A stretch of 64,000 nt of DNA. Source: Candidatus Hebobacterum abditum. Lineage in GTDB: Bacteria; Armatimonadota; Hebobacteria; Hebobacterales; Hebobacteraceae. Under the pieces are notes generated by a model. The model searched no databases. It was given only the letters and a program-made list of their open reading frames with translations, and was not told the origin of the DNA. Below, in pieces: positions 8,167 through 25,768 of the stretch (positions within the stretch are counted from its first letter, which is position 1; each line of letters begins with the position of its first letter). The stretch spans positions 1-64,000 of the forward strand of contig JALGXW010000031.1 of assembly GCA_029821875.1 (NCBI GenBank), in the 5' to 3' direction. The position numbers and the translations under genes are program-made.

Positions 8167-8170
8167 TAGC

Positions 8171-9144: not shown

Positions 9145-10251
9145 CTACGCTCCCTCTCTCACATCGATTGGCTGTGTTCCGGGCGCGCCCCCCAGTCCGG
9201 CGATGGCCGAGATCCTCTTCAGGTCAACATGCTCTCGGAAGAGCACCCGCGCCCGTTCGACCTTCGCGCTCTCCCTCACTCTGAGCCTGCCCGTCACGTG
9301 CTCAATGCGCTCTACCGTCGCCAGGGTGTCGTGCGGCGCGAGCAGCAGCGGCACACCCAGCTGCTGGGCTCGCTTCACTATCGGGCTACTGGGGTAGATG
9401 TTGCCGGTCAGCACGATCGCCTTCGTTGCCGTCTGCAGAGCGGCGAGCTGGATGTCCGCTCGATCGCCGCCTGTGATCACCGCCTTGTCGGCCAGTTGGC
9501 GGAAGTACTTCGCGGCGCTGGCTACCCCCATGGCTCCGATGACGAAGTGCACAACGAGTTCGTCCAGAGCTTTCTCGCAGCACAGCAGCTTCGCCGGCAG
9601 ATGCTCGGAGAGTTCTCTTATCGTAATCGCGCCGAGCAAGTCGTCCGGCGGGAGCGCTCCGAGTACCGGGATCCCGCGTCGCTCCAAGTAGCGTCCCAGC
9701 GTGCCGCGCAGCGCCTCTTGCTCGTCCGGCCCTACGAAGTTGAAGATGACGCCGCCGAACCGATCGCCAAGCAGACGCTTTGCCAGCAGCACCTCCTCAA
9801 CCATCGGCTCTGCAGACAGCTTATCCAGCAGTATGACTCGCGCGTCCAGAAGATCGGCTATCGCGGGAGCCGAAAGCCTCAGCAGCGACCCTCTCGACAA
9901 GTCGCCAACTCCGCCGACGAGCATCACGTCCCGGCCCTGGCACACCCGCTCGTAGCTCTCCCGGATGCGCTCGGGCAGACCTTTCACGTCCCCTTGGAGC
10001 GCGCTTTCCACAAGCTCTGGGCTGAGCAGTACGGGGCAGATGTCCTCAGACGGCGCCTCCGGGTTGAGGAGGCTGCTGATGAAATGTGCGTCCTCGTCGG
10101 TCGTCACGTCTCCGACCGTGTGCGGCAGCGTGCCGAGGGGCTTGAAGTAACCGACTCGGACCCCTCCGTCGCGCAGCGCCAGACCGATCGCAAGCGCAGT
10201 CAGAGACTTGCCTGCGAAGCTGTCGACGGAGGCTATGTAGAGCGGCCTCAT
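9145..10251 (-). CDS. BioD-like ATPase plus DRTGG-domain protein (N-terminal half of phosphotransacetylase type)
   Basis: 368 aa, overlapping the upstream activator gene by 4 nt (ATGA). The N-terminal part is a dethiobiotin-synthetase-like P-loop fold: YIASVDSFAGKSLTALAIG with a modified Walker A (residues about 6-20), then VGYFKPLGT and VMLVGGVGDLSRGS. The C-terminal half has the DRTGG-like segment (KAVITGGDRADIQLAALQTATKAIVLTG) that in Pta proteins precedes the catalytic domain. The catalytic phosphotransacetylase domain is absent. Related genes occur near acs genes in other anaerobes. A nucleotide-sensing or CoFeS-protein-associated role is possible but unproven. Confidence 0.8.
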   Translation of the reverse strand: MRPLYIASVDSFAGKSLTALAIGLALRDGGVRVGYFKPLGTLPHTVGDVTTDEDAHFISSLLNPEAPSEDICPVLLSPELVESALQGDVKGLPERIRESYERVCQGRDVMLVGGVGDLSRGSLLRLSAPAIADLLDARVILLDKLSAEPMVEEVLLAKRLLGDRFGGVIFNFVGPDEQEALRGTLGRYLERRGIPVLGALPPDDLLGAITIRELSEHLPAKLLCCEKALDELVVHFVIGAMGVASAAKYFRQLADKAVITGGDRADIQLAALQTATKAIVLTGNIYPSSPIVKRAQQLGVPLLLAPHDTLATVERIEHVTGRLRVRESAKVERARVLFREHVDLKRISAIAGLGGAPGTQPIDVREGA

Positions 10252-12149
10252 GCCCTCAACTCCAGCCTGCTGGCGACCGATGGGAAGCGCTGTAGGTCGG
10301 TGTGCGGCAGAAAGAGCCCTGACACATATCGATCCATGTAGCCCGGCACAACGCTCAACTCGAAATTAGTCATGCGGCCGGCCAACTCCTCCATGCCTCT
10401 GCGCGCCCCGCGGCCGAGCAAGGCGAGTCGCGCCCCGGCGACCGCCGCGTTGCCCACGAATCGGATCCGCTCCAGCGGCACGTCCGGAAGCAGGCCTATC
10501 GTCACGGCGCTCTCGGCGTCCAAGTAGTTGCCGAAGGCGCCCGCCACCAGGATCTGCTCGACGCGGCCGGCATCCAGCCCGAGCGACTCCAACAGCGTTT
10601 CCGCTCCGGCGTATACCGCAGCCTTCGACCGGATCAGATTCTGTATCCCGTCCTCACCGAGGGAGATGTCGTCCGATCTTCCGACCTCTTCTCCCCAGAC
10701 GAACACGAACTCGGGCCGCTCGTTCCGCACCCGCACTCGCCTGCTCGGAAAGCCGAGGTTGATCCGCCCCGCGCGGTCTATGGCGCCGGCCCGCAGGAGC
10801 GCTGCAAGTGCGTCCACGAGCCCCGACCCACAGATTCCCCGCGGCCTCGCGTCGCCGATCGTCACCCACTCCACCTGATCGGTCTCCCGATCGTAGGAGA
10901 GCCGCTCGATCGCGCCCACCGTGGCGTACATCCCGTACTCGACACCCGAGCCCTCAAAGGCCGGGCCGGCCGAGCAGGAACAGCACATCATCCACTCTTC
11001 GTGGCCGATGACCATCTCGCCGTTGGTGCCCATGTCTATGAACAGCGTCAGTCGAGGAGACTGGTCCAGGGCCGTCGCCAAGACTCCCGCCGTGATATCG
11101 CCGCCGACGTAGCTGCTCACACAGGGCGCGAGGTGAACCGGTGCGCGGGGGTGGATGTCCAGCCCGACCTCCCCCGCCCGCAGGACTGGCGCGGCCTTGA
11201 TCGCCGGCACGTATGGCTCTCGACGTATTGCCGCGGGGTCGATCCCGAGGAAGAGATGGGTCATCACCGTGTTGCCGACACAGGCCGCGCCGATGATCTG
11301 CGTCGGCGCCACGCCGTGCTGCCCGGCGACTTCCCGCGCGCATCGATTGACCGTCGCGCGGACTGCATCGCGGAGCTGATCCAATCCCGCCCCGTCCTCC
11401 TGAGCGTGGATGATCCGAGAGATGACGTCCTCCCCGTACGCGATCTGGTCGTTCAGAGAGGCGCACGCGTCGACGAATCCGTGCGTCGCGAGGTCGATCA
11501 ACTGCACGACAACGGTAGTGGTGCCCACGTCGACGGCCAGCCCGTACGCCTCCCCTGCTTGCGGGGGCTCCAGACCGAATACGCGGCCGTCACCACCGAA
11601 GTCTGCCACCAGCGCATCCACGTGCCAGGAGTTCTCGCGCGCCAGGCGGGGCAGGACCCGCAGCGAGGGCAGGTCGATGTCGAAGTGTTCGAAGCTTTCC
11701 CCGCTCGCCTCCGATAGCCGCTGGAGAAGCCTATCCTCGTCGCTGGCGTCGTCCTCCTGCCCCGGGGGCGCCATCTCCGCGGAGACTCGCGAGGCCAGCG
11801 GGGTGCCGGCCTGCGCCGGCTCGCCCGTGACCTCGGCCCTGCCCATGAGTATCTGCAGTTCACCCCGCTGAGACTCGAGTGGCACCTCGACAACCAGGTC
11901 GTCCGCGACCGTCGCCTGGCAGGCCAGCACGATACCTCTCTCGATCTCCTCCCTGGAGAGAGAATCGCCCGGCCTGCCACCGGGCTGGCCGAGCGATACG
12001 ATGACTCTGCATTTGCCGCACGCCCCCTGGCCCCCGCAGGAGGAGTCAATCGCCACCCCTGCCGCGCTCGCCGCCTCCAGGATGGTCCGGCCGGACTCCA
12101 CATCCAGGCACGCGCCGTCTGGCAGGAACACTACTATGTGGCTACTCAT
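10248..12149 (-). CDS. Reductive activator of the corrinoid protein (2Fe-2S ferredoxin plus ASKHA ATPase, RACo-like, DUF4445)
   Basis: 633 aa. The N-terminal ferredoxin domain has Cys38, Cys44, Cys47 and Cys77 in the plant-type 2Fe-2S spacing (SSCGGQGACGKC ... LACQA). The rest is the ASKHA/DUF4445 region: YGLAVDVGTTTVVVQLIDL (ATP phosphate loop), GEDVISRIIHAQE, CVGNTVMTHLFLGIDP, LFIDMGTNGEMVIG and LVAGAFGNYLDAE. RACo proteins use ATP to return inactive Co(II) corrinoid protein to Co(I). The position between acsC and acsD fits exactly. Residues about 130-180, linking ferredoxin and ATPase, are low-complexity acidic and likely flexible. Confidence 0.93.
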   Translation of the reverse strand: MSSHIVVFLPDGACLDVESGRTILEAASAAGVAIDSSCGGQGACGKCRVIVSLGQPGGRPGDSLSREEIERGIVLACQATVADDLVVEVPLESQRGELQILMGRAEVTGEPAQAGTPLASRVSAEMAPPGQEDDASDEDRLLQRLSEASGESFEHFDIDLPSLRVLPRLARENSWHVDALVADFGGDGRVFGLEPPQAGEAYGLAVDVGTTTVVVQLIDLATHGFVDACASLNDQIAYGEDVISRIIHAQEDGAGLDQLRDAVRATVNRCAREVAGQHGVAPTQIIGAACVGNTVMTHLFLGIDPAAIRREPYVPAIKAAPVLRAGEVGLDIHPRAPVHLAPCVSSYVGGDITAGVLATALDQSPRLTLFIDMGTNGEMVIGHEEWMMCCSCSAGPAFEGSGVEYGMYATVGAIERLSYDRETDQVEWVTIGDARPRGICGSGLVDALAALLRAGAIDRAGRINLGFPSRRVRVRNERPEFVFVWGEEVGRSDDISLGEDGIQNLIRSKAAVYAGAETLLESLGLDAGRVEQILVAGAFGNYLDAESAVTIGLLPDVPLERIRFVGNAAVAGARLALLGRGARRGMEELAGRMTNFELSVVPGYMDRYVSGLFLPHTDLQRFPSVASRLELRA

Positions 12150-12197: not shown

Positions 12198-13535
12198 TCA
12201 CGCCTCCCAGGAGGTTCGCAGGAACGTAGGTATGCCGGAGGACTCCCGCGGCCCGACGACGATCTTCCATTCCTGAGACAGTTCGTCCTCAAGCTTCCCA
12301 CTCAGAACAGCTACGTGTCCAGGGATGACCAGCTTCCGATGGTTGACCTTGCTCGCCACGTCGAAGGCCTTCACCTTCTCGGCGATGATCTCGGCGGTGA
12401 ACTTCTCCGCCGCCCAGGCCGTCAGCACAGAGGTCCCTTCGGTGTCGACCACGACCACCCAAGCCGGAACGCGGCTTGCCTCGACATCACCCTCCACGGT
12501 GAAGTACGTCAGTGAGAAGTTGGTCGTCACCAGAACGGGAGAGCTCTCATCGGGCGAGCCGATTTCGTAGAGGCCCTCCTCAATCTGGATCGGCTTCTGC
12601 GGGTCAGTGTAGATGTTCTGCCTGACCGTGACAAGCGTGAGGAGCTCCCATGGCTCCATATTGTTGATGACGACGATGCCCGCGTACTTGGCGATGTACG
12701 TGGCGGCCTGCTGGGTCTCCTCCAACGGATCGGCCCCGTCGGTGAACACTATCGTCGGGAATCCGAGCGGCCGGAATCGCTTCCTCAGGGCCGCCCGCCG
12801 GATCGCGGTCTCGTTGGCCAGCACCGCGGCGGGCTCGCGTGCCCCCGAGTCCAACACCAAGTCAGCAGCGCCGGCCGCCTGCGCCTTCTCCGACAGATCG
12901 GCCAGGGACGACAGATCACTGCCGCGCACGGCCAGTGGGCAGTTGTGCTCTTTGGACAGCGCAGCCATCGCGTCGACGTTCTCGGCCGTGGCCGCGTAGA
13001 TCAGAGGTCGCTTCCCGGCACATGCCTTGAGGGCCTCACCCATGACGGCCGGATCCTCGTTCACCAGTATCAGCGGCACGGCCGACTGCTGGGCCGCGAG
13101 CGCGGCTGCCTTGACGAAGGCTTCCCCCTCTCCCTTCAGCGCGACCGCGTTGAGCGTCAGAGTCTGGCCGACCCGCTCGAAGGAGACGTCGCCTATCGCT
13201 TTGATCCGAGCTGAGAGTTCCGCTTCCGGAAGCGCCGCGTCGACGGCGACGGCGATTCCGGTGGGATGGTAGAAAGTCTCCTCGTGTCGGAACAACACGG
13301 TCTCGTTGCCGACCTCCAGCTTCCTCTCGTCGGCGCCGACCGTGATGAGCTTGATGGGGGGAGCAGCGGCGCCCGAAAGGGCGGCCGTCGCCTCCTCCGA
13401 GACGTGAGGGCACTGGTCCAGGGAGGCCTGCTTCTGCGCCAACTTCATGGCGAAGGCGAGGCAGGTCGGAACTCCGCAGTCCCCGCAGTTGGTCTTAGGT
13501 AGCTGCTTGAAGATATCGAGGCCCGTGAGACCCAC
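12198..13535 (-). CDS. acsC: Corrinoid/iron-sulfur protein large subunit (CODH/ACS gamma)
   Basis: 445 aa from GTG 13535 with GGAGGTGA upstream. The N-terminus carries the 4Fe-4S site of AcsC, Cys17, Cys20, Cys25 and Cys42 (NCGDCGVPTCLAF ... DQC), followed by a TIM barrel and a C-terminal corrinoid-binding region (ATYIAKYAGIVVINNMEP; LVIPGHVAVLSGKLEDEL). The subunit holds the cobamide that accepts the methyl group from AcsE and passes it to AcsB. It lies 41 bp downstream of acsB. Confidence 0.95.
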   Translation of the reverse strand: MGLTGLDIFKQLPKTNCGDCGVPTCLAFAMKLAQKQASLDQCPHVSEEATAALSGAAAPPIKLITVGADERKLEVGNETVLFRHEETFYHPTGIAVAVDAALPEAELSARIKAIGDVSFERVGQTLTLNAVALKGEGEAFVKAAALAAQQSAVPLILVNEDPAVMGEALKACAGKRPLIYAATAENVDAMAALSKEHNCPLAVRGSDLSSLADLSEKAQAAGAADLVLDSGAREPAAVLANETAIRRAALRKRFRPLGFPTIVFTDGADPLEETQQAATYIAKYAGIVVINNMEPWELLTLVTVRQNIYTDPQKPIQIEEGLYEIGSPDESSPVLVTTNFSLTYFTVEGDVEASRVPAWVVVVDTEGTSVLTAWAAEKFTAEIIAEKVKAFDVASKVNHRKLVIPGHVAVLSGKLEDELSQEWKIVVGPRESSGIPTFLRTSWEA

Positions 13536-13576: not shown

Positions 13577-15808
13577 CTACATGAGCGACGGCATCTTAAG
13601 GGCTGGATGCTCCTGTTCTTCCAGCCATGGCATGAGCTCTTCCACGGTTGTCGCGACCGTCTCATCGGCGATCTTGTCGAAGAAACCGTCGAGGCCGAGC
13701 TCGGCCGCGCGCTCGTTGATCTGCTCTGCAAGCGCCTCCTTCAGCTCCTTGGGCATCCAGAGGATCCGGGGTAGTCCGCCCTCGGCCGAGATGAACTTCT
13801 TGCTCACAACGTAGAGCCGCCCAATGCCCAGGAAGCCCGGCGTCTGCAGGCCTCCGCCGACGGTGCCGGCCAGGGTGGTGAACGGCATCCCGCAGGGCGT
13901 GTCTCCTGGATATTCTCTGTTCACGATCATGACGCCGTGGACCTCCCCGGTGGGCTCCGGGAGGATGGCCATTATGCACTCAAAGCAGCCGCACGAGGTC
14001 ATGGGGTCTTCCATAAGGGAGTAGGCGTTGAACCTCTCGACAGACTTGTTGGAGGTCTGGTACACGAACTCGTTCACACCCTCCCATTGACCCTTGTCTT
14101 CGTCGATCGTCTGGCCCTTCGCCACCGGTTGGTTGGCGCCAGCGGGGCTGATCTCGTAGGCGGCCTTGCCGTCGAGCCAGTTGTAGGCGCCACACAGGCC
14201 GAGGCGCTCGGGGCTGATGACACACACATGGTTGGGCGCGTAGGACTGACACAGAGTGCAGGAGTAGAAGATGTCCACGCTCTCGTCTGTCATCCCAGCG
14301 ACCCGCGCGTCGCGCGCGGCCCACACCTTCCTGGCATCCTCCAGGATGGGCTGCATGGCCTCTTCCTCGGTGAAGATCGTCACCTGCACCTTGTCGACGA
14401 GCGCCGGGAACCTCTGTATGTACTCGGCCCGCAGCAGCTCGCCGAAGTGCTTGAGCCGCAGGCCGGACTTGAATGCGTCCTTGGAGATGCGGACCCAACT
14501 CATGTCACGCTGTCCCATGTGGAACACGCCCATGGCGTGGTTCAGCAGCGTGTGGACCTGCCGCTCCAGGATGGGCTCGAAGTCCTCCTGCATCTTGCGA
14601 CCGGCCACCTCGATGTAGACCCCGAGTGGCATCGCCCCGCCCTGCTCGACCGCGTCGCAGTCGGCTCCCACCAACTCGATCTTCCCGTCCTGGACCTGGT
14701 CCATCGGCCGCATCCTGAGGAACTCAAACGCAGTGCTGTACTTGCCACCGAACTGGACCTGCATGTCGTCCCGGCGGACCGTCTCGCCTTCGAAGGCCGC
14801 CGCCACCGGGACGGGGATGTCGATCGTGCTGACGCTGACCTTGACCCCGCGGACCTCCACGCACGTTTCCACGATGCGCTTCTGGTCGAGCTCCCTCACC
14901 AGGGCCTCATAGGTCGTGACCCCGCTGGGGCGGATCTCAGGTATCTCGGTGTCGCAGATCACCGGGAAGCCCATGTTGATCGCGCCGGCGCCGCTGGCGT
15001 ACTTGAGGTCGTCGATGTCGCCCAGCCCAAGTCCGAAGGCGAAGATGCGAGCGCGCGTGTAGTCGAGGCATTCCTTCCACTGGCCCTTCTTGTGGCCGCC
15101 GAAGGTCAGCGCGCCGCGAATCGCCCAGTTGAGGGCGTAGATGATCGACTCCGTGTCCGGGCCGAGCGGAACGATGTAGCGGCCCCACCAGGCCTTCCGG
15201 AGGTCACCATCCTCGGTCTCGGAAGCGTCCTTCGGCAGCACGCCGGCCTCGATGAGCTGATCCCTCATCGTCTCGCCGTTGTGGTTGCCGATGAGGAACG
15301 TGAGGATGTTGCGCTTCTGCAGCTCTCGAATCACGTGAACGGCCGTGTCGACATCGGGCGCGGCCCCGACTATCGCGGCGAATCCAGGGAGGCGGCCGTC
15401 TACGAGCTGAATGCCGAGGGTCCGCAGGATCGTGTCCGAGATGAAGCCATGCCACCCCTCGAGTGGCTCATCGCCTTCGAGATAGGCGATTGCCTTGAGC
15501 AACTCCTCCGCCAGGAGCGTGGCGACGCCGGCGTCCAGGGCGGCCGGGAGGTAGGGCAGCCAGATGTGCTCGGAGGGCTCCTCGGACAGAAGTGACTTCG
15601 CCGTGTCCAGCACCTCGCGGGCCTGTCCCAGGGTCGAGACTTCCAGGCCCAGCAGCGCATAGGCCATCGGCAGGAAGAACGCGGTCTCGGGGAACTCCAG
15701 CGCCTGCGACTCGCCATGCTTCTCGATAGCGCCGTTGAGCTTCTCCTCCGCCCGTGCGACGATCTCATTCGATCCCCGTATCGCAGCTGTGGCAACGGTC
15801 TTCGACAT
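13577..15808 (-). CDS. acsB: Acetyl-CoA synthase catalytic subunit (CODH/ACS beta, bacterial type)
   Basis: 743 aa from ATG 15808, chosen because AAGGAG lies 8 nt upstream; an in-frame GTG is 9 nt earlier. AcsB joins the methyl group, CO and CoA at the Ni-Ni-4Fe4S A-cluster. All six A-cluster cysteines are present: 517, 520, 529, 539 (CTLCQSYAPNHVC ... GLCGAYNW), 606 and 608 (SCGCFEC). Their spacing (3, 9, 10, 67, 2) is the same as in Moorella AcsB. The N-terminal CODH-docking domain missing from archaeal CdhC is present, so this is the bacterial form. Confidence 0.97.
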   Translation of the reverse strand: MSKTVATAAIRGSNEIVARAEEKLNGAIEKHGESQALEFPETAFFLPMAYALLGLEVSTLGQAREVLDTAKSLLSEEPSEHIWLPYLPAALDAGVATLLAEELLKAIAYLEGDEPLEGWHGFISDTILRTLGIQLVDGRLPGFAAIVGAAPDVDTAVHVIRELQKRNILTFLIGNHNGETMRDQLIEAGVLPKDASETEDGDLRKAWWGRYIVPLGPDTESIIYALNWAIRGALTFGGHKKGQWKECLDYTRARIFAFGLGLGDIDDLKYASGAGAINMGFPVICDTEIPEIRPSGVTTYEALVRELDQKRIVETCVEVRGVKVSVSTIDIPVPVAAAFEGETVRRDDMQVQFGGKYSTAFEFLRMRPMDQVQDGKIELVGADCDAVEQGGAMPLGVYIEVAGRKMQEDFEPILERQVHTLLNHAMGVFHMGQRDMSWVRISKDAFKSGLRLKHFGELLRAEYIQRFPALVDKVQVTIFTEEEAMQPILEDARKVWAARDARVAGMTDESVDIFYSCTLCQSYAPNHVCVISPERLGLCGAYNWLDGKAAYEISPAGANQPVAKGQTIDEDKGQWEGVNEFVYQTSNKSVERFNAYSLMEDPMTSCGCFECIMAILPEPTGEVHGVMIVNREYPGDTPCGMPFTTLAGTVGGGLQTPGFLGIGRLYVVSKKFISAEGGLPRILWMPKELKEALAEQINERAAELGLDGFFDKIADETVATTVEELMPWLEEQEHPALKMPSLM

Positions 15809-15859
15809 CAGCTCCACTCCTTAGCAACGACTCTCACATCCGACCCGCGCGGCCTCCAG

Positions 15860-16771
15860 TCAGAGGCCTGCGGCCTCCAGCACTGCCGGCACGTGGTGCC
15901 CCCAACCCAGGGGCATCAGGTGTACCCCCGCGCAGTGCGGCCGAAGATCCCGGATCAGCCGCGCGGCTATCTCGATGCTGGTCTTCGTTCTGAAGTCGGC
16001 TTTCTTCCCCTCAGCCCTGGCCGACCTGTCCTTCTCGCCGGCCGCGCTCATCTCCCTGATGAGACTATCGGGCACGAACACGCCGGCGACGTTTGCGTTC
16101 ATGTAGCGCGCCATTCCGGCCGACTTGAGGAGCACGATCCCGGCCAGGATCGGCACGTCAACGTCCGCCACTCGCTCCATGAACTTGGCGAACGTATCTG
16201 CATCGTACATGGCCTGTGTCTGGATGAACCTGGCGCCCGCGCGGACTTTGTTATGAAGCTTGTAGATCTGTGGCTCGACGGGGTCGGCGCGCGGTGTAAC
16301 GATAGCTCCCAGGAACAGGTCCTCGGGTGGGCCCGCCAGTTCGTTCCCACTCAGGTCGCGCCCCTCGATCAACCCCTGGGCTGCCTGCAGCAGGGAAACC
16401 GAATCCAAGTCGAAGACGGGCTTCGACTCCGGATGGTCGCCGAGGACCACGTGATCTCCGGTGAGGCACAGCACATTTCGAATCCCGAGCACATATGCGC
16501 TGAGCAGTTCGCTCTGGAGCGCCAGCCGATTCCGGTCTCGGCACACCATTTGCAGGATGGGCTCGAGGCCTTTCTGCTCGAGGAGCGTACATGTCGCAAG
16601 CGAGCTCACCCGCATGGAGGCGGCCTGAAGATCGGTCACGTTGAGGCCGGCGACGCGCCCGCGGAGGAGTTCGGCCTCCTCCAGCACGTGCTCCATGTTC
16701 ACGCCCTTCGGCGGCGCTACCTCACACGTGATGGTGGAATCCTGCGACTCCAGAGCTTCCCTGAACGTCAT
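15860..16771 (-). CDS. metF: Methylenetetrahydrofolate reductase
   Basis: 303 aa. MetF reduces methylene-THF to methyl-THF, the last methyl-branch step before AcsE. The TIM-barrel family signs are FxxxxEVxPPKG-like (TITCEVAPPKGVNMEH), NVTDLQAASMRVSS, LCLTGDHVVLGDHPESKPVFDLDSV (split by flavin-contacting Asp residues) and GARFIQTQAMYDADTF. It follows metV by 43 bp, the arrangement of the MetVF complexes of acetogens. No NADH-binding domain is fused, so electrons must arrive through a partner. Confidence 0.94.
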   Translation of the reverse strand: MTFREALESQDSTITCEVAPPKGVNMEHVLEEAELLRGRVAGLNVTDLQAASMRVSSLATCTLLEQKGLEPILQMVCRDRNRLALQSELLSAYVLGIRNVLCLTGDHVVLGDHPESKPVFDLDSVSLLQAAQGLIEGRDLSGNELAGPPEDLFLGAIVTPRADPVEPQIYKLHNKVRAGARFIQTQAMYDADTFAKFMERVADVDVPILAGIVLLKSAGMARYMNANVAGVFVPDSLIREMSAAGEKDRSARAEGKKADFRTKTSIEIAARLIRDLRPHCAGVHLMPLGWGHHVPAVLEAAGL

Positions 16772-16814
16772 TCGACTGCCGCCTCCGACTCGATGTCAAT
16801 GGCCGTCATCTCGG

Positions 16815-17510
16815 CTAATCCTTGCCCTCGGCCTTCTCAGGCTCGGCCAGTTCCAGAGCCCAGAGACTGCCGCGCCGCTTGTCGCCCACCGGCAGCATGT
16901 TCTGGAAGTTGCGCAGCGGCGGCATCTCCTGCAGGCGATCCGCCCTGCCCAGGGCGGCCAGCCTCTCGTATATCCTCATCCAGCCGCACTCAACTGAATC
17001 GTCCACCTCGCACTTGCCGTCCTTCGGCCCCCCGCAGCTCCCATAGAGCAGCGACTTCGAGCAGGCCGTGTAGGGGCAGATGCCGCCCGTGTAGTCGAGC
17101 ATGCAGTTCCCGCATTCGGCGCAGCGAGGCTCAGAGCGCCACAGGCCCTGGAAGCCACCGACGTAGACCGAATTGGTCCCCGGGTGCACGGGCTTCTCCA
17201 CGGCGGCTGCGACGGACTGAACGCCGGCACCGCAGGCGAGGACCAGAATGCCGTCTGCAGAGTCCACATCGGCCAGATGCTGCGTGAGCACCAGCGCCGT
17301 CAGTCCCCGGTTGCAGGTCATCTCGACCCGTGCCGTCCCCGTCACGGACTTGCCGTTCGCCTCCAACTCCTTCACCATTTCGGCCGTGTGCTCCGGATCG
17401 GAGACGCCGCATCCGGCCGAGCAGCCGTCACAGGCCACCACGAAGACCTTCTTCTCGGCCTCTAGATAGCCCAAGATCTCCTCAGTGGGCTTGCGTTCGG
17501 ATGCGATCAT
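16815..17510 (-). CDS. metV: MetV, zinc/iron-sulfur partner subunit of methylene-THF reductase
   Basis: 231 aa; its start overlaps the hydrogenase-protease stop by 4 nt (ATGA). An N-terminal Cys cluster (VACDGCSAGCG) and a C-terminal set (CAECGNCMLDYTGGICPYTACSKSLLYGSCGGPKDGKCEV, read in pieces) match the MetV family (methylene-THF reductase C-terminal-like, zinc-finger or FeS-binding). In Moorella, MetV bridges MetF to an HdrABC-MvhD electron module. Here the upstream neighbours are a NiFe hydrogenase and its protease instead, which makes the hydrogenase a candidate electron donor. Confidence 0.9.
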   Translation of the reverse strand: MIASERKPTEEILGYLEAEKKVFVVACDGCSAGCGVSDPEHTAEMVKELEANGKSVTGTARVEMTCNRGLTALVLTQHLADVDSADGILVLACGAGVQSVAAAVEKPVHPGTNSVYVGGFQGLWRSEPRCAECGNCMLDYTGGICPYTACSKSLLYGSCGGPKDGKCEVDDSVECGWMRIYERLAALGRADRLQEMPPLRNFQNMLPVGDKRRGSLWALELAEPEKAEGKD

Positions 17511-17983
17511 ATCAGCGTCTCCTCAGTCGGCATCCACCCGAGTTCTCGCGCCATGTGCACCTCCAACAGCGGGAGGCACTCGGCCACCGCCTCCGACAAC
17601 TCGGTCCCCCACCCGGTCTGCCCAGGCTCCACCCCGTAGATCACGATCTCTCCCACGCGCAGCCCGGCCTGCTGCAGCAGCCCCAACTGATCCAGCAGCC
17701 CGTGCTCGTGAACCGATAGGGCCGGCGCATCCCTGTCGGCCACATCGCGGAGCGAGACCCGGGCGATGCTTCCTGGTTCCTTGCCGGCCCGCAGCGCGTC
17801 GATGACGACGAGCTTGTCTATGTCCTTCCAGTCTGAGAGGGCCTCGAAGACCGCCGTCCCACCGTCCACCATTGCGGCGTGCTCCGCGCAGGGGCCGCTC
17901 GCAAGCGCGCGTACGGCGTGGACCCCAACGCCTTCGTCCTGGCGAAGAAGGTTGCCGACTCCCAGCACGACGACTGTCTTCAT
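17507..17983 (-). CDS. NiFe-hydrogenase maturation protease (HycI/HyaD family)
   Basis: 158 aa from ATG 17983, which overlaps the large-subunit stop in ATGA; an alternative ATG 12 nt upstream would add MSGA. The family signature VVVLGVGNLLRQDEGVGVHAV is at the N-terminus and includes the metal-binding acidic residue in the DEG loop. MVDGGTAVFEAL and KLVVIDALRAG follow, as in HycI/HupD proteases. It should cut the C-terminal peptide after the CxxC-x2-H motif of the adjacent large subunit. It is translationally coupled on both sides (hydrogenase large subunit and metV). Confidence 0.92.
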   Translation of the reverse strand: MKTVVVLGVGNLLRQDEGVGVHAVRALASGPCAEHAAMVDGGTAVFEALSDWKDIDKLVVIDALRAGKEPGSIARVSLRDVADRDAPALSVHEHGLLDQLGLLQQAGLRVGEIVIYGVEPGQTGWGTELSEAVAECLPLLEVHMARELGWMPTEETLI

Positions 17984-19548
17984 AGCACCCGACATCTCCC
18001 GATCTCCCGCCCCTTGGGTGTCAGCATGTGCACCGAGCAGGCCAAGCATGGATCGAACGAGCGCACGATCCGAACGACCTCGAAGGGATTCTCAGGATCC
18101 CTGATCTTCGTGCCGATGATAGCCTGCTCCATGGGTCCCGGGTTGCCTTCATCGTCCTTTGGCGAGGCGTTCCACGTCGTCGGGACGACGAGCTGGTACC
18201 TCGTCAGCTTGTGGTCCTGTATCTCGCACCAGTGACCCAGCGATCCCCGCGGGGCCTCCGTCAGGCCCCTGCCGGTGCCGCTTTCCGGCACCCCTCGCCA
18301 CTCGCACACTGGCTCGCCAGGTTTCAGCGCCATTGCCCAGCCGAGCATGGCGTCGGCGAGCCGACGCGCCTCCAGCGCCCGCGCCGCGTGACGGCCGAGC
18401 ACGGAGAACAGCGCCTCCGGTCCCGCCTCGAGTCGCCCGAGCACCGCCTCTACGTCTCTCTTGACGGCCTCGTCCCCGGCCGCATAGGCGACCAGCGCCC
18501 GGGCCAGGGGCCCGACCTCGTGGGGTTGACCCGCGTAGCGCGGAGCCTTGAGCCACGAGTACCCGGACTCCTTGTCGGGCGCTGGCACGGTGTCGGCCTC
18601 GGCCGGCTTGCGGCCGCTGGTGGCGTCGTCATACCAGGAGTTGCGGACGTACTCGGCGACCTGCTCCGCATCGGCGGCCTCGAGCGTCAGGTCGGCGCCG
18701 ACCCGGCCGGCGGGGAAGAACCGCTCTCGCTTGAGCAGGTTCGTCTCCTTTGTTTCGAGGTCGAGGCCGCCCCAGGACAGGTAGCGCTTCGGGCCCGCGC
18801 CAATCCCAAAGTAGTCGGGATAGGCCGCCGCGACAGCCAGAACGTCGGCGATATACACGTCATCGATGAAACGCCTGAGCCATTCGAGCTTCGACAGAAA
18901 GGCGGCGATCTTGTCCGCCGTCGGCGTCTCCGTACATCCACCCACCACGATGCCCACCTGGTGGGGCATCTTGCCGCCGAAGATGGCGCACATCTCGTGT
19001 GCGATGCGCCGCGCCTCCAGCGCCCGCACGTAGTGGGCGGCCCCCTGCTGATTCGCTTCCTTGGGGAGCCGGTAGTCACCCTCGTAGCGCGGCATGAACG
19101 GCGCCAACTCTCCCCTGCCTATGAACCCGCGGAGGCTCTTCAGCCCATCGTCGGCGCCCTCGTAGTCGGCGGCCGCGCTCACATCCACGAAGTCGAGCGC
19201 GGCCAGGTGGTAGAAGTGCAGGATGTGAGACTGGATGAAGTTGGACCCGAAGATCAGGTTGCGCATGAGGCGCCCGTTGTCCGGTATCTGGCCGTCCACA
19301 CCGAAGGCCGAGTCGAGGCAGAGCGCGGAGGCCATTGCGTGGGCGATGGGGCACACGCCGCACACCCGCTGCGACAGCAGAGCCGCATCCCTCGGGTCGC
19401 GGCCGAGAAGCATCATCTCGAAGCCCCGGAACATCTGTCCCGAGCACTTCGCCTCCTTGACGTCCCCAGCGTCGACGACGACCTCTACCTTGAGATGGCC
19501 TTCGATTCGAGTGATCGGATCTATGCGTATGGTCTGTGTGTCGGCCAT
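17980..19548 (-). CDS. NiFe-hydrogenase large subunit
   Basis: 522 aa. Both Ni-binding motifs are intact: RVCGVCPIAH (Cys63, Cys66, His70) and DPCLACSVH (Cys501, Cys504). They are followed by a 15-residue C-terminal peptide, MLTPKGREIGRCRVL, that the downstream protease should remove after His507. The start RIDPITRIEGHLKVEV is typical of group 1/2 large subunits. The gene is 3 bp after the small subunit. No cytochrome b, Hdr or diaphorase gene is nearby, so the electron acceptor is unknown; MetVF is the natural candidate from context. Confidence 0.95.
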   Translation of the reverse strand: MADTQTIRIDPITRIEGHLKVEVVVDAGDVKEAKCSGQMFRGFEMMLLGRDPRDAALLSQRVCGVCPIAHAMASALCLDSAFGVDGQIPDNGRLMRNLIFGSNFIQSHILHFYHLAALDFVDVSAAADYEGADDGLKSLRGFIGRGELAPFMPRYEGDYRLPKEANQQGAAHYVRALEARRIAHEMCAIFGGKMPHQVGIVVGGCTETPTADKIAAFLSKLEWLRRFIDDVYIADVLAVAAAYPDYFGIGAGPKRYLSWGGLDLETKETNLLKRERFFPAGRVGADLTLEAADAEQVAEYVRNSWYDDATSGRKPAEADTVPAPDKESGYSWLKAPRYAGQPHEVGPLARALVAYAAGDEAVKRDVEAVLGRLEAGPEALFSVLGRHAARALEARRLADAMLGWAMALKPGEPVCEWRGVPESGTGRGLTEAPRGSLGHWCEIQDHKLTRYQLVVPTTWNASPKDDEGNPGPMEQAIIGTKIRDPENPFEVVRIVRSFDPCLACSVHMLTPKGREIGRCRVL

Positions 19549-19551
19549 CGA

Positions 19552-20484
19552 CTACTCATCCTCCGCAGGCTGGGGCCGCATAACCACGGCGAGTCTCCCC
19601 GACCCCGTGTCCAGTGCCACCCGCGGCAGCTCCGGCAGTCCGATCTTCCGGTAGATCGGGCTGGCGACATCGGGGAAGAAGGGCTCGACGCACCCGTGGC
19701 AGGGAGAGCCGGCCTTCACGCACCAGTTGAGGCCCCCGTTGAACTCTCTCTCCGGACAGTCGGCATGTGTCCAGGGTCCCTTGCATCCCAACTCGTAGAG
19801 GCAGCCGGGCTCGCCGACGGACTTGGCAAACCTGTTGGCCTCGAAGTCACCCCGCCGCTGGCAGAGATCATGCAGCAGGTGCCCGAAGAAGCGCTTCGGC
19901 CGGCCGGCCGAGTCCACCTCATCCGCCGTCGGCAATCCGAACAGGAGCACGTGCCCCACGGTGCCGGTGAACCAATCGGGATGGGGCGGGCAGCCAGCGA
20001 CGTTCACTATCGGCTTCTCGATCCCCGCCTCTGCCAGCGCATCGGTCACGCTCACGCAGCCGGTCGGATTGGGGGAGGCGGCATGCATGCCGCCATAGGC
20101 CGCGCACGTTCCCATCGCAACGACAGCCGCCGCCTTCTCCGCCAGCTCCAGCGCCCGCTCGTGCATGGTCGACTCGCCGCCCCTTCCGGCCGCGCGGCCG
20201 AACAGGCCGCCGGCGGCAGTCGGGAGCGCCCCGTCGATCACGAGCAGGTAGCCTTCTCCAGCCTCCTCGGTGGCGCCGAGTATGTCCACGGCCACCGTGC
20301 CGGAGCCGGCCATGATCGTCGGCTGGAACTTCAGGCTCACATGATGCCCGGGGGCGATCTGGTCGACGATCAGATCGCGGACGGTGGGCGCGACGCCGTT
20401 GAGCGCCGCCACCACGCACCCGGAGCAGGCCGAGGCCTGGAACCACACCGCCGCATGCTCTTCGACGGGTTCGGAATTCGCCAT
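19552..20484 (-). CDS. NiFe-hydrogenase small subunit without Tat signal
   Basis: 310 aa with GGGAG 7 nt before ATG. The proximal-cluster motif ACSGC (Cys20, Cys23) lies close to the N-terminus and the first 15 residues are acidic (MANSEPVEEHAA), so the twin-arginine signal of periplasmic uptake enzymes is missing and the enzyme should be cytosolic. GTCAAYGG and NVAGCPPHPDW are conserved. The C-terminal medial/distal cluster region (CLYELGCKGPWTHADC, WCVKAGSPCHGC, EPFFPD) is of the group 1/2 type, not the short F420/NAD group 3 type. Confidence 0.93.
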   Translation of the reverse strand: MANSEPVEEHAAVWFQASACSGCVVAALNGVAPTVRDLIVDQIAPGHHVSLKFQPTIMAGSGTVAVDILGATEEAGEGYLLVIDGALPTAAGGLFGRAAGRGGESTMHERALELAEKAAAVVAMGTCAAYGGMHAASPNPTGCVSVTDALAEAGIEKPIVNVAGCPPHPDWFTGTVGHVLLFGLPTADEVDSAGRPKRFFGHLLHDLCQRRGDFEANRFAKSVGEPGCLYELGCKGPWTHADCPEREFNGGLNWCVKAGSPCHGCVEPFFPDVASPIYRKIGLPELPRVALDTGSGRLAVVMRPQPAEDE

Positions 20485-20517: not shown

Positions 20518-21441
20518 CTAACCCTCGGTCTGCCACTTCGCTGCTTCGAGGGTGTTGCGCAAGAGAATCGCCGTCGTCACCACCCCGACCCCGCCTGGAA
20601 CCGGCGTGATCGCCGCCGCCTTCTCCTTGGCGGCTTCGAAGTCCACATCGCCGTAGGTCTTCGTCTTGCCGGTCTCCTCGTCTTTCACGCGGATCGTCGC
20701 CACGTCGATCACGATCGCGCCCGGCTTCACCATGTCCCCCGATACAAGGCCCGGCTTCACTCCGACCGCAGTGACGAGGATATCGGCCCGACTCGTGTGC
20801 GCGGCCAGATCGCCGCGCTCGCTGGTGCCGATGTGGCAGACGGTCACAGTTGCCCCGGCGAGCTTGTCGGTCTTGCCGTCGCTGTCGGCGGTGATGTACT
20901 TGTCGACGAGGAGGAGGGCGACGGGCTTGCCGACGATCTCGCTGCTGCCCACCACCACTGCTTCCTTGCCGTAGGCGTCGACGCCCGAGGCGCGAAGCAG
21001 CTCGATGACACTCATCGCCGTGCAGGGCGCCAGCCGCGGCTGTCCCAATACGACTCGGCCGAGATTGGCAGGGCTCACCCCGTCAACGTCTTTGCGCGGG
21101 TCGATGAGCGCCTGCGCTGTGGCGCCATCCAGCCCCTTGGGCAACGGCATGAGCAGCAGGATGCCGTGCACAGAGGCGTCGGCATTGAGCTTGGCGATGG
21201 CCGCCTCGAGGTCAGACTGGCCGATGTCGGCTGGATGCTGCTGCAGCTCGTAGGCGATGCCGACCTGCCCGCACGCCTTCTCCTGGGCGCCGGCGTAGAA
21301 CTTCGCCCCCGGATTGTCGCCTGCCAACACGGCCACCAGCTTCGGCGTCACTCCCTTGGCCTGAAGGCTCTCGACCTCGGCCTTCACGCCGGCTCGCATC
21401 TCCTCCGAGATTGGCTTCCCTTCGAGCAGTTTCGCGCTCAC
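20518..21441 (-). CDS. folD: Bifunctional methylene-THF dehydrogenase/methenyl-THF cyclohydrolase
   Basis: 307 aa from GTG 21441, which overlaps the fchA stop (GTGA) and has GGAGG 4 nt upstream. FolD motifs are KFYAGAQEKACGQVGI (substrate Tyr/Lys region), ILLLMPLPKGLD, KDVDGVSPANLG, PCTAMSVIELL, VVVGSSEIVGKPVALLL (nucleotide-binding) and the C-terminal PGGVGVVTTAILLRNTLEAA. It catalyses the NAD(P)-linked step between methenyl- and methylene-THF. fchA next door makes the cyclohydrolase activity partly redundant, as in many acetogens. Confidence 0.95.
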   Translation of the reverse strand: MSAKLLEGKPISEEMRAGVKAEVESLQAKGVTPKLVAVLAGDNPGAKFYAGAQEKACGQVGIAYELQQHPADIGQSDLEAAIAKLNADASVHGILLLMPLPKGLDGATAQALIDPRKDVDGVSPANLGRVVLGQPRLAPCTAMSVIELLRASGVDAYGKEAVVVGSSEIVGKPVALLLVDKYITADSDGKTDKLAGATVTVCHIGTSERGDLAAHTSRADILVTAVGVKPGLVSGDMVKPGAIVIDVATIRVKDEETGKTKTYGDVDFEAAKEKAAAITPVPGGVGVVTTAILLRNTLEAAKWQTEG

Positions 21442-22079
21442 TTTGCCTCCCCTCGCATGATGGCTTGGACCTTCTCCCAAACCTCCTGGCCGAGCCTGCC
21501 ACCCTCTTCGAGCAGCGGCGCCATCTCCTTGCGGCATTCCTCGACGTATGACTCGTCCCTGATATAGGCGAGATTGATCTCCACGTTGAGGGCCGCGCAC
21601 TCCATCGCCGCCACGGCGAACTTCGCCGCCACACCGACGTCGGTGATGAGATTCGGATTCCCCTTCCCGACCAGTTCAGCAGCTATCTCGATGACCCCGT
21701 GGGCCGCCTTCACCGCCTCCCGCGGCACCTCGGCGGCGGCCTTCAGCGCCTTCTGCATCGCCTCCCGCCGGGCGGCCTTCTCCTCGTCGGTTTCGCGCGG
21801 CATCTTCTGGGCCGCGGCCACCTGGCCGTAGGCCTCGGTGTCCGCCTGGGTGAGCCGCTCCAGCGCAGCGCGCAGCTCCTCCGACCGGGACAGCAGGCGT
21901 TGCACCTCCTCCTCGACGGCCGCGAACTTCTCTTTGCCCACAGTGAAGTTCGCCACCATGCTGTTGAGCGCCGCGCCGAGCGCGCCGACCAGCGCGGCCG
22001 CGCTGCCGCCTCCGGGAGCGGGCCGCCCGGAGGCCAGGGCGTCGGTATATCCTTTCAGCGGATTGTCGAGGTAGCTCAT
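21438..22079 (-). CDS. fchA: Methenyltetrahydrofolate cyclohydrolase
   Basis: 213 aa, mostly helical, with the FTCD-C/FchA signature: PAPGGGSAAALVGALGAALNSMVANFT near residues 20-46, then AMQKALKAAAEVP, a central GNPNLITDVGVAAKFAVAAMECAALNVEINL and a C-terminal DESYVEECR. FchA hydrolyses methenyl-THF from formyl-THF in the methyl branch. It begins 1 bp after the fhs stop and overlaps folD, so the three folate genes form a tightly coupled block. Confidence 0.95.
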   Translation of the reverse strand: MSYLDNPLKGYTDALASGRPAPGGGSAAALVGALGAALNSMVANFTVGKEKFAAVEEEVQRLLSRSEELRAALERLTQADTEAYGQVAAAQKMPRETDEEKAARREAMQKALKAAAEVPREAVKAAHGVIEIAAELVGKGNPNLITDVGVAAKFAVAAMECAALNVEINLAYIRDESYVEECRKEMAPLLEEGGRLGQEVWEKVQAIMRGEAK

Positions 22080-22080
22080 C

Positions 22081-23775
22081 TCAGAACAACCCTACGATCT
22101 TCCCGTCCTCGTCGATGTCAACGTTCAGCGCGGCCGGCTTGCTCGGCAGACCGGGCATCGTCGAGAACGTCCCGAGCAGCGGGAAGAGAAACCCCGCGCC
22201 CGCGCTCGGCCGAATGTCGCGCACGGGAACGCGGAAGCCGGTGGGCCGGCCCTTGAGGGTGCCGTCGTGTGAGAGCGAGAGGTGCGTCTTCGCCATGCAG
22301 ATCGGGAGCTTGTCGAGGCCCCACTTGGTGAAGGCCTCTATCTTCCGCTCGGCGGCCCGGGCGTAGTCCACGCCATCCGCGCCGTACACTTTCGTGGCGA
22401 TGGCCTCGATCTTCTCCTTGATAGATGCATCATCGGGATACAGCAGATTGAAGTCCGACGGCTTCTCGGCGGCCGCGACGACGGCCTCCGCGAGCTCGCG
22501 GCCGCCCTCTCCTCCCTTCGCCCAGACATCGGAGAGGTAGGCGCCCTCGGCGCCGGCCGCCACGGCCTGCTCCTGGATGAGCTTGACCTCGGCGTCGGTG
22601 TCCTGCGTGAAGCGGTTGACGGCAACCACGACCGGAACGCCGAAGAGCTTCGCGTTTTCGATATGCTTGGCGAGGTTGGCGCTGCCTTTCTCGAGCGCGG
22701 GCAGGTTTTCCTCAATGATCTCCGGCGGCAGCGGCCTGCCGGGGCGTATGTTGCCCACCCCGCCATGCATCTTCAGCGCTCTGACCGTCGCGACGATCAC
22801 GACACAGTCAGGCTGGAGGCCGCTGATGCGGCACTTGATGTTGAAGAACTTCTCCATCCCGCAGTCGGCGCCGAAGCCAGACTCCGTCACGACGTAGTCC
22901 GCAAGCTTCAGCGCGATCTGGTCGGCGATGATGGAAGAGTTGCCGTGGGCGATGTTGGCGAAGGGCCCCGCGTGCACGAAGACCGGCGTGTTCTCCAGTG
23001 TCTGCATCAGGTTCGGCATGAGCGCGTCCTTCATGAGAACGCACATCGCGCCCGCAGCATCCAGGTCTTCGGCAGTCACCGGTTCGCCGTCCCGCGTCTG
23101 GCCGAAGATGATCCGGCCCAGCCTCTGGCGGAGGTCTTGCAGACTCGTGGCGAGCGCCAGGATGGCCATCACCTCGCTGGCGACCGAGATGTCGAAGCCG
23201 GTTTCCCGCACGCTGCGGTTCTCCCCGCCGAGCCCGGAGACGATATTGTAGACGCCCCACTTGTCGTTCAAGTCAATGACACGACGCCACGAGATCGTGC
23301 GGGGATCTATGCCGAGCTGGTTTCCGTGCTTGATGTGGGCGTCGATCATCGCCGCCAGCAAGTTGTTCGTGATGCTCACGGCGTGGACGTCGCCGGTGAG
23401 ATGGAGGTTGAAGTCCTCCATCGGCACGACCTGGGAATGGCCGCCGCCGGCCGCGCCGCCCTTGATCCCGAAGACGGGCCCAAGGCTGGGCTGGCGGATG
23501 CAGGTCATGACCTTCTTGCCGATCACCCCGAGCGCCTGAGAGAGCCCGATGGTCGTGACCGTCTTCCCCTCGCCCAGGGGCGTCGGCGTGATAGCCGTGA
23601 CGTCGATGTACCTTCCGTTCGGGCGGTCCTTGAGCCGCTCCAAGATGTCGAGGTGGACTTTCGCCTTCCACTTCCCATAGAGGTCGAGGTCGTCCTCGCC
23701 GATGTCGGCCCCCTCGGCTATCTCCAGAATCGGCTTCATCTTCGCAGCTTGTGCGATCTCAAGGTCGCTCTTCAT
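22081..23775 (-). CDS. fhs: Formate-tetrahydrofolate ligase
   Basis: 564 aa, the usual Fhs length. The ATP-binding loop TPTPLGEGKTVTTIGLSQAL is at residues about 62-81. Other family signs are RQPSLGPVFGIKGGAAGGGHSQV, MEDFNLHLTGD, TPVFVHAGPFANIAHGNSS and the C-terminal GFRVPVRDI and PSAGAGFLFPLLG. It attaches formate to THF with ATP and starts the methyl branch. No formate dehydrogenase lies in the window, so formate must come from a gene elsewhere or from outside. GGAGGGG lies just before the start. Confidence 0.97.
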   Translation of the reverse strand: MKSDLEIAQAAKMKPILEIAEGADIGEDDLDLYGKWKAKVHLDILERLKDRPNGRYIDVTAITPTPLGEGKTVTTIGLSQALGVIGKKVMTCIRQPSLGPVFGIKGGAAGGGHSQVVPMEDFNLHLTGDVHAVSITNNLLAAMIDAHIKHGNQLGIDPRTISWRRVIDLNDKWGVYNIVSGLGGENRSVRETGFDISVASEVMAILALATSLQDLRQRLGRIIFGQTRDGEPVTAEDLDAAGAMCVLMKDALMPNLMQTLENTPVFVHAGPFANIAHGNSSIIADQIALKLADYVVTESGFGADCGMEKFFNIKCRISGLQPDCVVIVATVRALKMHGGVGNIRPGRPLPPEIIEENLPALEKGSANLAKHIENAKLFGVPVVVAVNRFTQDTDAEVKLIQEQAVAAGAEGAYLSDVWAKGGEGGRELAEAVVAAAEKPSDFNLLYPDDASIKEKIEAIATKVYGADGVDYARAAERKIEAFTKWGLDKLPICMAKTHLSLSHDGTLKGRPTGFRVPVRDIRPSAGAGFLFPLLGTFSTMPGLPSKPAALNVDIDEDGKIVGLF

Positions 23776-23830: not shown

Positions 23831-25768
23831 TCAGCTGGCGGGCGCCGCCGCTTCCTCGGCCTCATACATCATCGGGCGAAGCTTGAGCGCCGCCCGCTTC
23901 TCGTTCATATGCTCGATCATCATTCTTGCGGCGGCGACGGGATCTGCCTCGAAGGCCCAGGTGGCCCCGAAGTCCTCCTCCATCCCCTTGGTGAGGTAGT
24001 CGTGGACGGCCGGGGAGCCCTCCACCGGCAGCGAGTTGCCGAACACGGTGAAGATGCCGGAGCCGACGACGTACATGCCGATGGCCACCGCCTTCTCGGA
24101 CATCCACTCGGGGGCCGCGCCCGCGACGGGGAGATCGCTGAGATCCTCGCCGAGGCCACCCTCTTTGATCATCTCACAGCAGGCGACGAGGATGCGGCTG
24201 TTGTCTACGCAGGCTCCTACGTGGAGCACCGGCGGGATGCCCACCGCCTCGCAGATCTCCTGGAGGCCGCGTCCCGCGTACTTGGCGGCGGCCTCGGGGG
24301 CGAGGAGACCCTCCTTGGCGCAGGCAATGGCCGCGCAGCCGGTCTGCACCACGAGCACGTCGTTGCGGATCAGCTCCTTGACCATGTCGACGTGGCCCTG
24401 CTCGACGGGCTGGAAGTTCGGGTTGCAGCAGCCGACCACCCCGGCGACGCCGCGCAGCCGTCCCTCAATGATGCCGTTGTTGAGGGGGCGGTAGGAGGGG
24501 CGGAAGCTGCCGCCCAGCATCCGGAATACGTACTCGGTGGTGAACCCGGCGACCAGGTCCATCGGGTGCTGCGGGATGCTGACGGTCTCTGGGTCCCGGT
24601 CCGGGAACTTCTCGATGGCAACGCGAATGATCTCGCGCGCCACGTCCAGCGCGCGCTCTTCGTCGAACTCAATGTGCCGGACGCCCGGCATGCGCGCCTT
24701 TGGCGAAGTTGTGACCAGCTCGGTGTGAAAGCACTTCGCCACCTCGGGCAGCGAGGGCATGAGGCACTGGACGTCCACCACCATCGCCTCCACCGCGCCG
24801 GTGGCGATGGCGAGCTCCTGCTCCAGGAACTGGCCGGCGGAGGGAATGCCCTGTCGCATGAGGACCTCGTTGGCCGTGCAGCAGACGCCGCTGAGCTGAA
24901 TGCCCTTCGCGCCCTTCTCCTCGGCGAGCTTGATGAGCTCCGGATCGCGGGAGGCCTCCACGATCATGTCCGAGAGAATGGGCTCGTGGCCGTGGACCAG
25001 GACGTTCACTTTGTCGTTGCTGATGACGCCGAGGTTGACCTTGCCGCGGACGGGCAGGGGGGAGCCGAGCATGATGTCCTGGAGGTCGGTGCCGATCATG
25101 GAGCCGCCCCAGCCGTCGGCGAGCGCGGTGCGGACGCCGTGACGTATGATGTTCTTGTAGTCGGTGTCGACGCCCATTGTGGTGCGGTGCATGCACTCGA
25201 CGACTTCGCGGTCTATGCCGCGGGGGGTCACGCCCTGCTTCTGCCAGACCTCTTGCCGCGTCTCGGGGGCGCGCTTGAGAAGGCGCAACTGCCCCTCTTG
25301 CTGGCCGAACTCCGAGAGTGCGGCGGCGGCGAGTTCACGGGCGATCTCTTGGGAGGGCTTGCCGTCGGTCTCCAGCCCATACTCCGCGGCGACGCGGCGC
25401 AGCTTCACCTCATCTTTGACGGAGTAGTCCTTGGCCTTGCCCTCCCCCATCAGCAGCAGCGTGTGGGCGACGCTGCGGCCGTGGTCGGAGTGGGCGGCGG
25501 TGCCGGCGGCAACCATCCTGCTTACGTTTCGTGCGACGACAGTGTCGGCGGTGGCGCCGCAGACTCCAATCCTCTCGCCCCTCGCCGAGGTGCCGACCCG
25601 GCAGGGGCCCATGCTGCAGATTCGGCAGCAGATTCCTTCTCTGCCAAAGCGGCAGGAAGGCTGCTGAGACTCGAAGCGATCCAGCGCCGTCAGCACACCC
25701 CGCTCCTCGGCCGTCTGTAGGGCCGCCTGGCTGGCCGGATCTCTCATCCGCTTTCCGTTGTCACCCAT
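23831..25768 (-). CDS. cooS: Anaerobic (nickel) carbon monoxide dehydrogenase catalytic subunit
   Basis: 645 aa with AAGGAG 9 nt before ATG. The enzyme interconverts CO2 and CO for AcsB. The D/B-cluster cysteines 39, 47, 48, 51, 56 and 70 fall at the same residue numbers as in Carboxydothermus CODH-II. The C-cluster ligands are present: His261 (VHGHEP), Cys297, Cys335, Cys448, Cys478 and Cys520 (GACVDNSR). The gene heads the Wood-Ljungdahl block after cooT. No cooC nickel ATPase gene is seen; CooT may take part in nickel delivery. Confidence 0.97.
   Translation of the reverse strand: MGDNGKRMRDPASQAALQTAEERGVLTALDRFESQQPSCRFGREGICCRICSMGPCRVGTSARGERIGVCGATADTVVARNVSRMVAAGTAAHSDHGRSVAHTLLLMGEGKAKDYSVKDEVKLRRVAAEYGLETDGKPSQEIARELAAAALSEFGQQEGQLRLLKRAPETRQEVWQKQGVTPRGIDREVVECMHRTTMGVDTDYKNIIRHGVRTALADGWGGSMIGTDLQDIMLGSPLPVRGKVNLGVISNDKVNVLVHGHEPILSDMIVEASRDPELIKLAEEKGAKGIQLSGVCCTANEVLMRQGIPSAGQFLEQELAIATGAVEAMVVDVQCLMPSLPEVAKCFHTELVTTSPKARMPGVRHIEFDEERALDVAREIIRVAIEKFPDRDPETVSIPQHPMDLVAGFTTEYVFRMLGGSFRPSYRPLNNGIIEGRLRGVAGVVGCCNPNFQPVEQGHVDMVKELIRNDVLVVQTGCAAIACAKEGLLAPEAAAKYAGRGLQEICEAVGIPPVLHVGACVDNSRILVACCEMIKEGGLGEDLSDLPVAGAAPEWMSEKAVAIGMYVVGSGIFTVFGNSLPVEGSPAVHDYLTKGMEEDFGATWAFEADPVAAARMMIEHMNEKRAALKLRPMMYEAEEAAAPAS

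Follow-up and report, generated by a model that had tools for sequence, protein, structure and literature searches.

A soluble NiFe hydrogenase encoded with MetVF: a probable hydrogen-coupled methylene-THF reductase in Candidatus Hebobacterum abditum

Background

Published reviews describe four types of methylene-THF reductase (MTHFR types I-IV), none of which includes a hydrogenase, and which electron donor serves MetVF is an unsettled matter in the bioenergetics of acetogens (PMC8760232, PMC9430772). Purification of the type II enzyme of C. ljungdahlii and C. formicoaceticum yields MetVF alone, which can be supplied with electrons by Fe-S donors (reduced ferredoxin in vitro) but not by NAD(P)H (PMC8760232). 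The locus analysed here shares with type II the MetV and MetF families, where the Fe-S clusters of MetV feed the flavin of MetF, but differs in that a hydrogenase is co-encoded with a distinct MetV subtype. It also differs from the type III enzyme (MetVF-RnfC2) because its metVF genes have no adjacent RnfC-like subunit. The Hdr-type MTHFR (type IV; HdrCBA-MvhD-MetVF of Moorella and Sporomusa; PMC9430772) resembles our locus in that MetVF is coupled to a dedicated redox module and, in Sporomusa, in that H2 reaches methylene-THF. In Sporomusa, however, this occurs by way of a periplasmic cytochrome-b hydrogenase, the membrane and Hdr, whereas here a hydrogenase predicted to be soluble and cytoplasmic adjoins MetV without Hdr or MvhD.

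Two reports bear directly on the hydrogenase. HysAB was described in 2024 to adjoin MetVF in Ca. Bipolaricaulia and was suggested to supply electrons for methylene-THF reduction (PMC11287216). The adjacency and the suggestion are the same as ours, but in the accessible part of that article they take up one sentence on two MAG groups, and an analysis of distribution, MetV subtype or export signals was not found in that part. In Hebobacteria, a group 1a hydrogenase was taken to be respiratory, serving sulfate, metal or organohalide reduction (PMC10290634), and a term search of this paper returned no mention of MetVF adjacency.

Organization of the operon

The window, which is the whole stretch of 64,000 nucleotides analysed, belongs to a 4.31 Mb assembly of 103 contigs. 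The genes that concern us are all located on the minus strand and are given below in order of their coordinates.

7381-8199, minus strand: acsE, CODH/ACS cluster
8171-9142, minus strand: acsD, CODH/ACS cluster (name from sequence)
9145-10251, minus strand: DRTGG/AAA_26 protein, CODH/ACS cluster
10248-12149, minus strand: RACo-type activator, CODH/ACS cluster
12198-13535, minus strand: acsC, CODH/ACS cluster
13577-15817, minus strand: acsB, acetyl-CoA synthase (NF040764, 988 bits)
15860-16771, minus strand: metF, flavin subunit of methylene-THF reductase, 303 aa (PF02219)
16815-17510, minus strand: metV, Fe-S subunit of methylene-THF reductase, 231 aa (PF12225)
17507-17983, minus strand: hydrogenase maturation protease, 158 aa (TIGR00072, PF01750)
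17980-19548, minus strand: hydL, NiFe hydrogenase large subunit, 522 aa (NF033181)
19552-20484, minus strand: hydS, NiFe hydrogenase small subunit, 310 aa (TIGR00391)
20518-21441 (start approximate), minus strand: folD, methylene-THF dehydrogenase/cyclohydrolase
21438-22079, minus strand: fchA, upstream methyl-branch gene (name from sequence and conserved neighbourhood)
22081-23775, minus strand: fhs, upstream methyl-branch gene (name from sequence and conserved neighbourhood)
23831-25768, minus strand: cooS, CO dehydrogenase catalytic subunit (TIGR01702, 650 bits)

The order of transcription is folD, hydS, hydL, protease, metV and metF, which is exactly the order given by an earlier sequence-only reading of this DNA. 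The ATGA overlaps that it described were found at the hydL/protease and protease/metV junctions, while hydS and hydL are separated by 3 nt and metV and metF by 43 nt. Genes located upstream of the hydrogenase genes are fhs, fchA, cooS, CooT, hypE and hypD, and those downstream of metF are acsB, acsC, the RACo-type activator, acsD and acsE.

Three further features of the neighbourhood were also observed. A CooT-like protein of 63 residues (PF10133; 25955-26146) sits between hypE and cooS, the DRTGG/AAA_26 protein between the RACo-type activator and acsD is related to the N-terminal part of phosphate acetyltransferase, and a DUF166 protein (PF02593; 6648-7349) comes after acsE.

The hydrogenase and its protease

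Both subunits score above the cut-offs of their families, with hydL at 687 bits against NF033181 (cut-off 600) and hydS at 211 bits against TIGR00391 (cut-off 179.5). The NiFe ligand motifs of hydL (RxCGxC and DPCxxCxxH) are present as RVCGVC and DPCLACSVH, with cysteine instead of selenocysteine. The C-terminal tail after the histidine is 15 residues long and would be cleaved off by the protease, a step that would close the active site. All the expected ligand positions for three Fe-S clusters were found in hydS, with a cysteine at the fourth position of the medial cluster (NWC); we take the cluster assignment by analogy with NiFe and NiFeSe structures.

The nearest solved relatives of hydS (E 1.6e-67) and of hydL are NiFeSe hydrogenases, namely the periplasmic HysAB enzymes (group 1a) of Desulfovibrio and Desulfomicrobium. 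Unlike HysAB, the HydSL of the window has no Tat signal, carries Cys in place of Sec and is paired with MetVF. Judged by its motifs and relatives, HydSL is a NiFeSe-like hydrogenase with Cys replacing Sec. The nearest match of hydS in the collection is a MAG labelled 'Candidatus Hebobacteria' with 96% identity.

Gene order in relatives

We searched about 85,000 genomes with hydS alone, so that the test for pairing with metV is not circular, and surveyed the best 80 of 117 relatives. Within this set metV was found to be next, directly or after the protease, in all 66 relatives with at least 700 nt after hydL, and metF was also present in all 57 with at least 2500 nt. The same gene order, which the sequence-only reading had proposed to look for in related genomes, therefore recurs and is not a product of chance. 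That reading had also named a hydrogenase clustered with a membrane or Hdr partner as evidence against it; no partner other than metV was observed in any of the 66 testable loci among these best 80 of 117 relatives.

By record title the carriers span about ten phyla, including Chloroflexota, Aerophobota, Armatimonadota, Desulfobacterota-type lineages, Actinomycetota, Elusimicrobiota, Planctomycetota, Bipolaricaulota, Bacillota, Nitrospirota, Poribacteria and others, where single phylum names are soft because nearly all relatives are MAGs whose titles and binning may be wrong. A distribution across phyla, a hydrogenase-specific MetV clade with marker residues and a link to export loss were not found in the open-licence PMC literature. 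One locus (L082:1978-4513) was observed to have hydS followed directly by metV and metF, with hydL absent between them and elsewhere on its 5 kb contig.

Distances among 61 complete operons, in which shared descent is included, were found to correlate at 0.78 for hydS-metV and 0.77 for hydL-metV, compared with 0.65 for metV-metF and 0.39 for hydS-metF. This suggests a tighter association of MetV than of MetF with the hydrogenase within these operons. The poor tracking of metF with hydS looks as if MetF had been replaced while HydSL and MetV stayed together. The identity of MetF to the copy in the window is variable, being about 40% in some loci and 55% in others (e.g. L013, L032 and L049).

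A hydrogenase-linked MetV subtype

Each of 48 carrier genomes holds between one and five copies of PF12225, and most of the non-hydrogenase metV copies whose neighbourhoods were inspected adjoin GltD/FlpD-type flavoproteins. In a first tree of 133 MetVs, nearly all the hydrogenase-linked ones fell to the same side of a branch (SH-aLRT 98). A second tree, to which 30 MetVs from Bacillota were added, gave a clade of 69 hydrogenase-linked MetVs with nothing else inside (SH-aLRT 99). Two long-branch sequences, L209_8324 (which lay inside in the first tree) and L219_4701, were removed before the second tree and the exclusivity of the clade holds after their removal.

The clade of 69 leaves out L076_3701 and L220_4662. 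These were not retained as hydrogenase-linked MetVs since each adjoins another metV in the same operon and is better read as a tandem second copy. A tandem metV pair indeed follows the hydrogenase at L076:3099-4561 and at L220, with the second copy coming from a different MetV branch. In a careful tree of 93 sequences without all four of these entries, the hydrogenase-linked clade was recovered with support of 100/99. The flavoprotein-linked MetVs, including the second copy in the same genome as the window, were found to fall outside it.

Residue W124 is present in 69 of 69 hydrogenase-linked MetVs as opposed to 0 of 44 flavoprotein-linked ones, while L70 and G29 are fixed in the former and rare in the latter. 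The metV of the window carries all three residues and thus belongs to the hydrogenase-linked subtype. W124 and the other marker residues provide a signature for sorting MetVs by partner. A hydrogenase-coupled type would be defined by a physical complex with H2-dependent methylene-THF reduction and, at the level of sequence, by a conserved gene order and a partner-specific MetV clade. The two sequence features were found for this locus, and HydSL-MetVF is best read from these sequences as a fifth, hydrogenase-coupled type of MetVF beside the published types I-IV.

A search of the PDB by sequence found no relative of MetV. The MetV model alone has a pLDDT of 85 and gave only partial, low-TM matches in Foldseek. 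As a larger AlphaFold input we used a natural in-frame read-through of hydS, hydL and metV from one relative (L011), with stops read as Gly and with the read-through rows sharing hydL aligned. The resulting model has a pTM of 0.61, a score that carries no inter-chain confidence, with a poor HydS C-domain, and Foldseek re-found only the hydrogenase large subunit with it.

Export signals and cellular location

The small subunit was claimed to lack a Tat signal, and this holds: none was found in hydS, whose open frame runs just six codons upstream of the chosen start (316 versus 310 aa). HydSL is therefore not expected to be periplasmic. No cytochrome b/c partner or membrane anchor was found near the hydrogenase genes in the operon of the window. 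A loose RR pattern was observed in three of 81 hydS sequences of this type (L010, L020 and L050), all in short N-termini that show no sign of a full signal peptide.

More distant hydrogenases were compared in two lineages. The scores of hydS matches in Armatimonadota drop from 334 to 212 bits. Three outgroup loci from this phylum (L106-L108) carry Tat sequences, beginning MQINRRDFVRYC. In the sample from Desulfobacterota the matches drop from 314 to 250 bits, and 20 neighbourhoods were compared. Three of them (L284-L286) have the present hydrogenase type, with hydL, metV and metF all present and the Tat match absent. The other 17 are more distant. No metV was seen in any of these 17, where L294 ends inside hydL and so cannot tell and L293 extends about 1 kb beyond hydL, and a scripted test of the first 60 residues matched the Tat motif in 16. 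The one locus without a match in those residues (L301) has a 70-residue stretch ending in ISRR. A Tat motif may begin with these residues if the start codon was called too early. Export signal and metV linkage sort together in the lineages compared, Armatimonadota and Desulfobacterota.

Proposed function and alternatives

The five genes very probably encode a soluble cytoplasmic H2:methylene-THF oxidoreductase, HydSL-MetVF, in which electron transfer would be direct and is probably simple. A cytoplasmic hydrogenase and metVF pair that recurs in distant bacteria with a matched MetV suggests that H2 probably drives the methyl-group step directly. The sequence-only reading had proposed that H2 could feed methylene-THF reduction in this way, and the proposal gains support from the linkage to metV at every testable locus, from the fixed residues of the hydrogenase-specific MetV clade and from the 17 Desulfobacterota outliers, in which no metV was seen and 16 of which matched a Tat motif. 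Its description as a new electron route is only partly right because HysAB was already suggested to supply MetVF in Bipolaricaulia (PMC11287216), so that adjacency and idea are in print, whereas the breadth, the partner-specific MetV and the reassignment of the hydrogenase appear to be new. A hydrogenase-specific MetV lineage over many uncultured sediment phyla would offer a concrete, testable answer on the electron donor for those organisms.

In the proposed mechanism, H2 would be split at the NiFe site of HydL and the electrons would pass through the three clusters of HydS to the Fe-S clusters of MetV, which is presumed to dock at the distal HydS cluster. From there they would reach the flavin of MetF, where methylene-THF would be reduced to methyl-THF. 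As no second acceptor or bifurcating flavin subunit was found in the operon, a simple two-electron transfer is probable. With the potentials used in PMC9430772 (-414 mV for H2, -200 mV for methylene-THF) and under standard assumptions, we computed a strongly exergonic yield of about -41 kJ/mol at 1 bar H2, but only about -13 kJ/mol at 1 Pa and about -7 kJ/mol at 0.1 Pa. The driving force at low H2 is small and the reaction could therefore be near-reversible in H2-poor sediments, where it could run towards acetate formation or, at low methylene-THF, backwards.

The small yield at 0.1 Pa is also what would favour the same complex working mainly as a methyl-THF oxidase that releases H2 in acetate or methyl-group oxidation. 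We consider this main direction unlikely. Oxidation of organic matter is conceivable for some of the carriers, which belong to Desulfobacterota or Chloroflexota, but at all the H2 pressures for which we computed yields the standard potentials are in favour of reduction, and direction is not something that sequence can reveal.

A second alternative is that HydSL acts as a cytoplasmic H2:ferredoxin oxidoreductase and that MetVF draws on this ferredoxin, with the genes being adjacent only through their shared role in the methyl branch. The use of reduced ferredoxin by purified type II MetVF in vitro (PMC8760232) is consistent with such a carrier, and shared operons can reflect shared regulation. 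It is nevertheless improbable, since a free carrier does not fit the separate clade and fixed diagnostic residues of the hydrogenase-adjacent MetVs, the closer tracking of hydS-metV than of metV-metF distances, or the absence of any other hydrogenase partner in the 66 testable loci.

The direct route wastes energy at high H2 relative to bifurcation, which counts against the direct reading. A self-contained bifurcating H2:methylene-THF/ferredoxin oxidoreductase, made of HydSL-MetVF without an Hdr or Rnf-like flavoprotein, would regain this energy, and MetVF-based bifurcation has been considered as an explanation for the ATP yields of acetogens (PMC8760232). If true, this would give acetogens a bifurcating architecture of a new kind. 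We regard it as very improbable: a second flavin protein, HdrA and RnfC are all absent from the operon of the window, the driving force shrinks at low H2, and the purified type II enzyme did not bifurcate when given NAD(P)H and ferredoxin (PMC8760232).

A respiratory role of HydSL in the reduction of sulfate, metals or organohalides, as a HydDB-based classification of the enzyme into group 1a in 11 of 13 Hebobacteria might indicate (PMC10290634), is hardly credible and was rejected given the Tat-less hydS, the lack of a membrane or cytochrome partner in the operon and the exclusive MetVF linkage among testable relatives. The common label 'group 1a hydrogenase' needs to be re-read, as the enzyme analysed here seems to belong, in soluble form, to CO2 fixation and not to respiration.

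Other redox modules in the genome

The sequence-only reading had stated that no cytochrome b, Hdr or NAD-reducing module is present. This is true of the operon but not of the genome, which elsewhere has an NAD(P)H-type flavoprotein-FlpD fusion with a second MetVF, and RnfC. The second metV-metF pair is located on contig C58 (L090:5777-9542), directly downstream of the fusion, a protein of 691 residues with Fer4 and a C-terminal FlpD/MvhD domain. This is the sole FlpD match of the genome, and no hdrABC-mvhD was found beside the metVF of the window. Likewise no RnfC-like subunit was found there, the sole RnfC match of the genome being on contig C100. Flavoprotein-linked MetVs resembling the C58 copy were observed to recur in many carrier genomes. 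In addition, contig C4 (L091:7034-11157) encodes another NiFe hydrogenase, which includes an FAD/NAD-binding subunit and has a group-3b-like gene content. A complex I/Mrp-like cluster was likewise found (entry L091 on contig C4 and entry L092 on contig C102).
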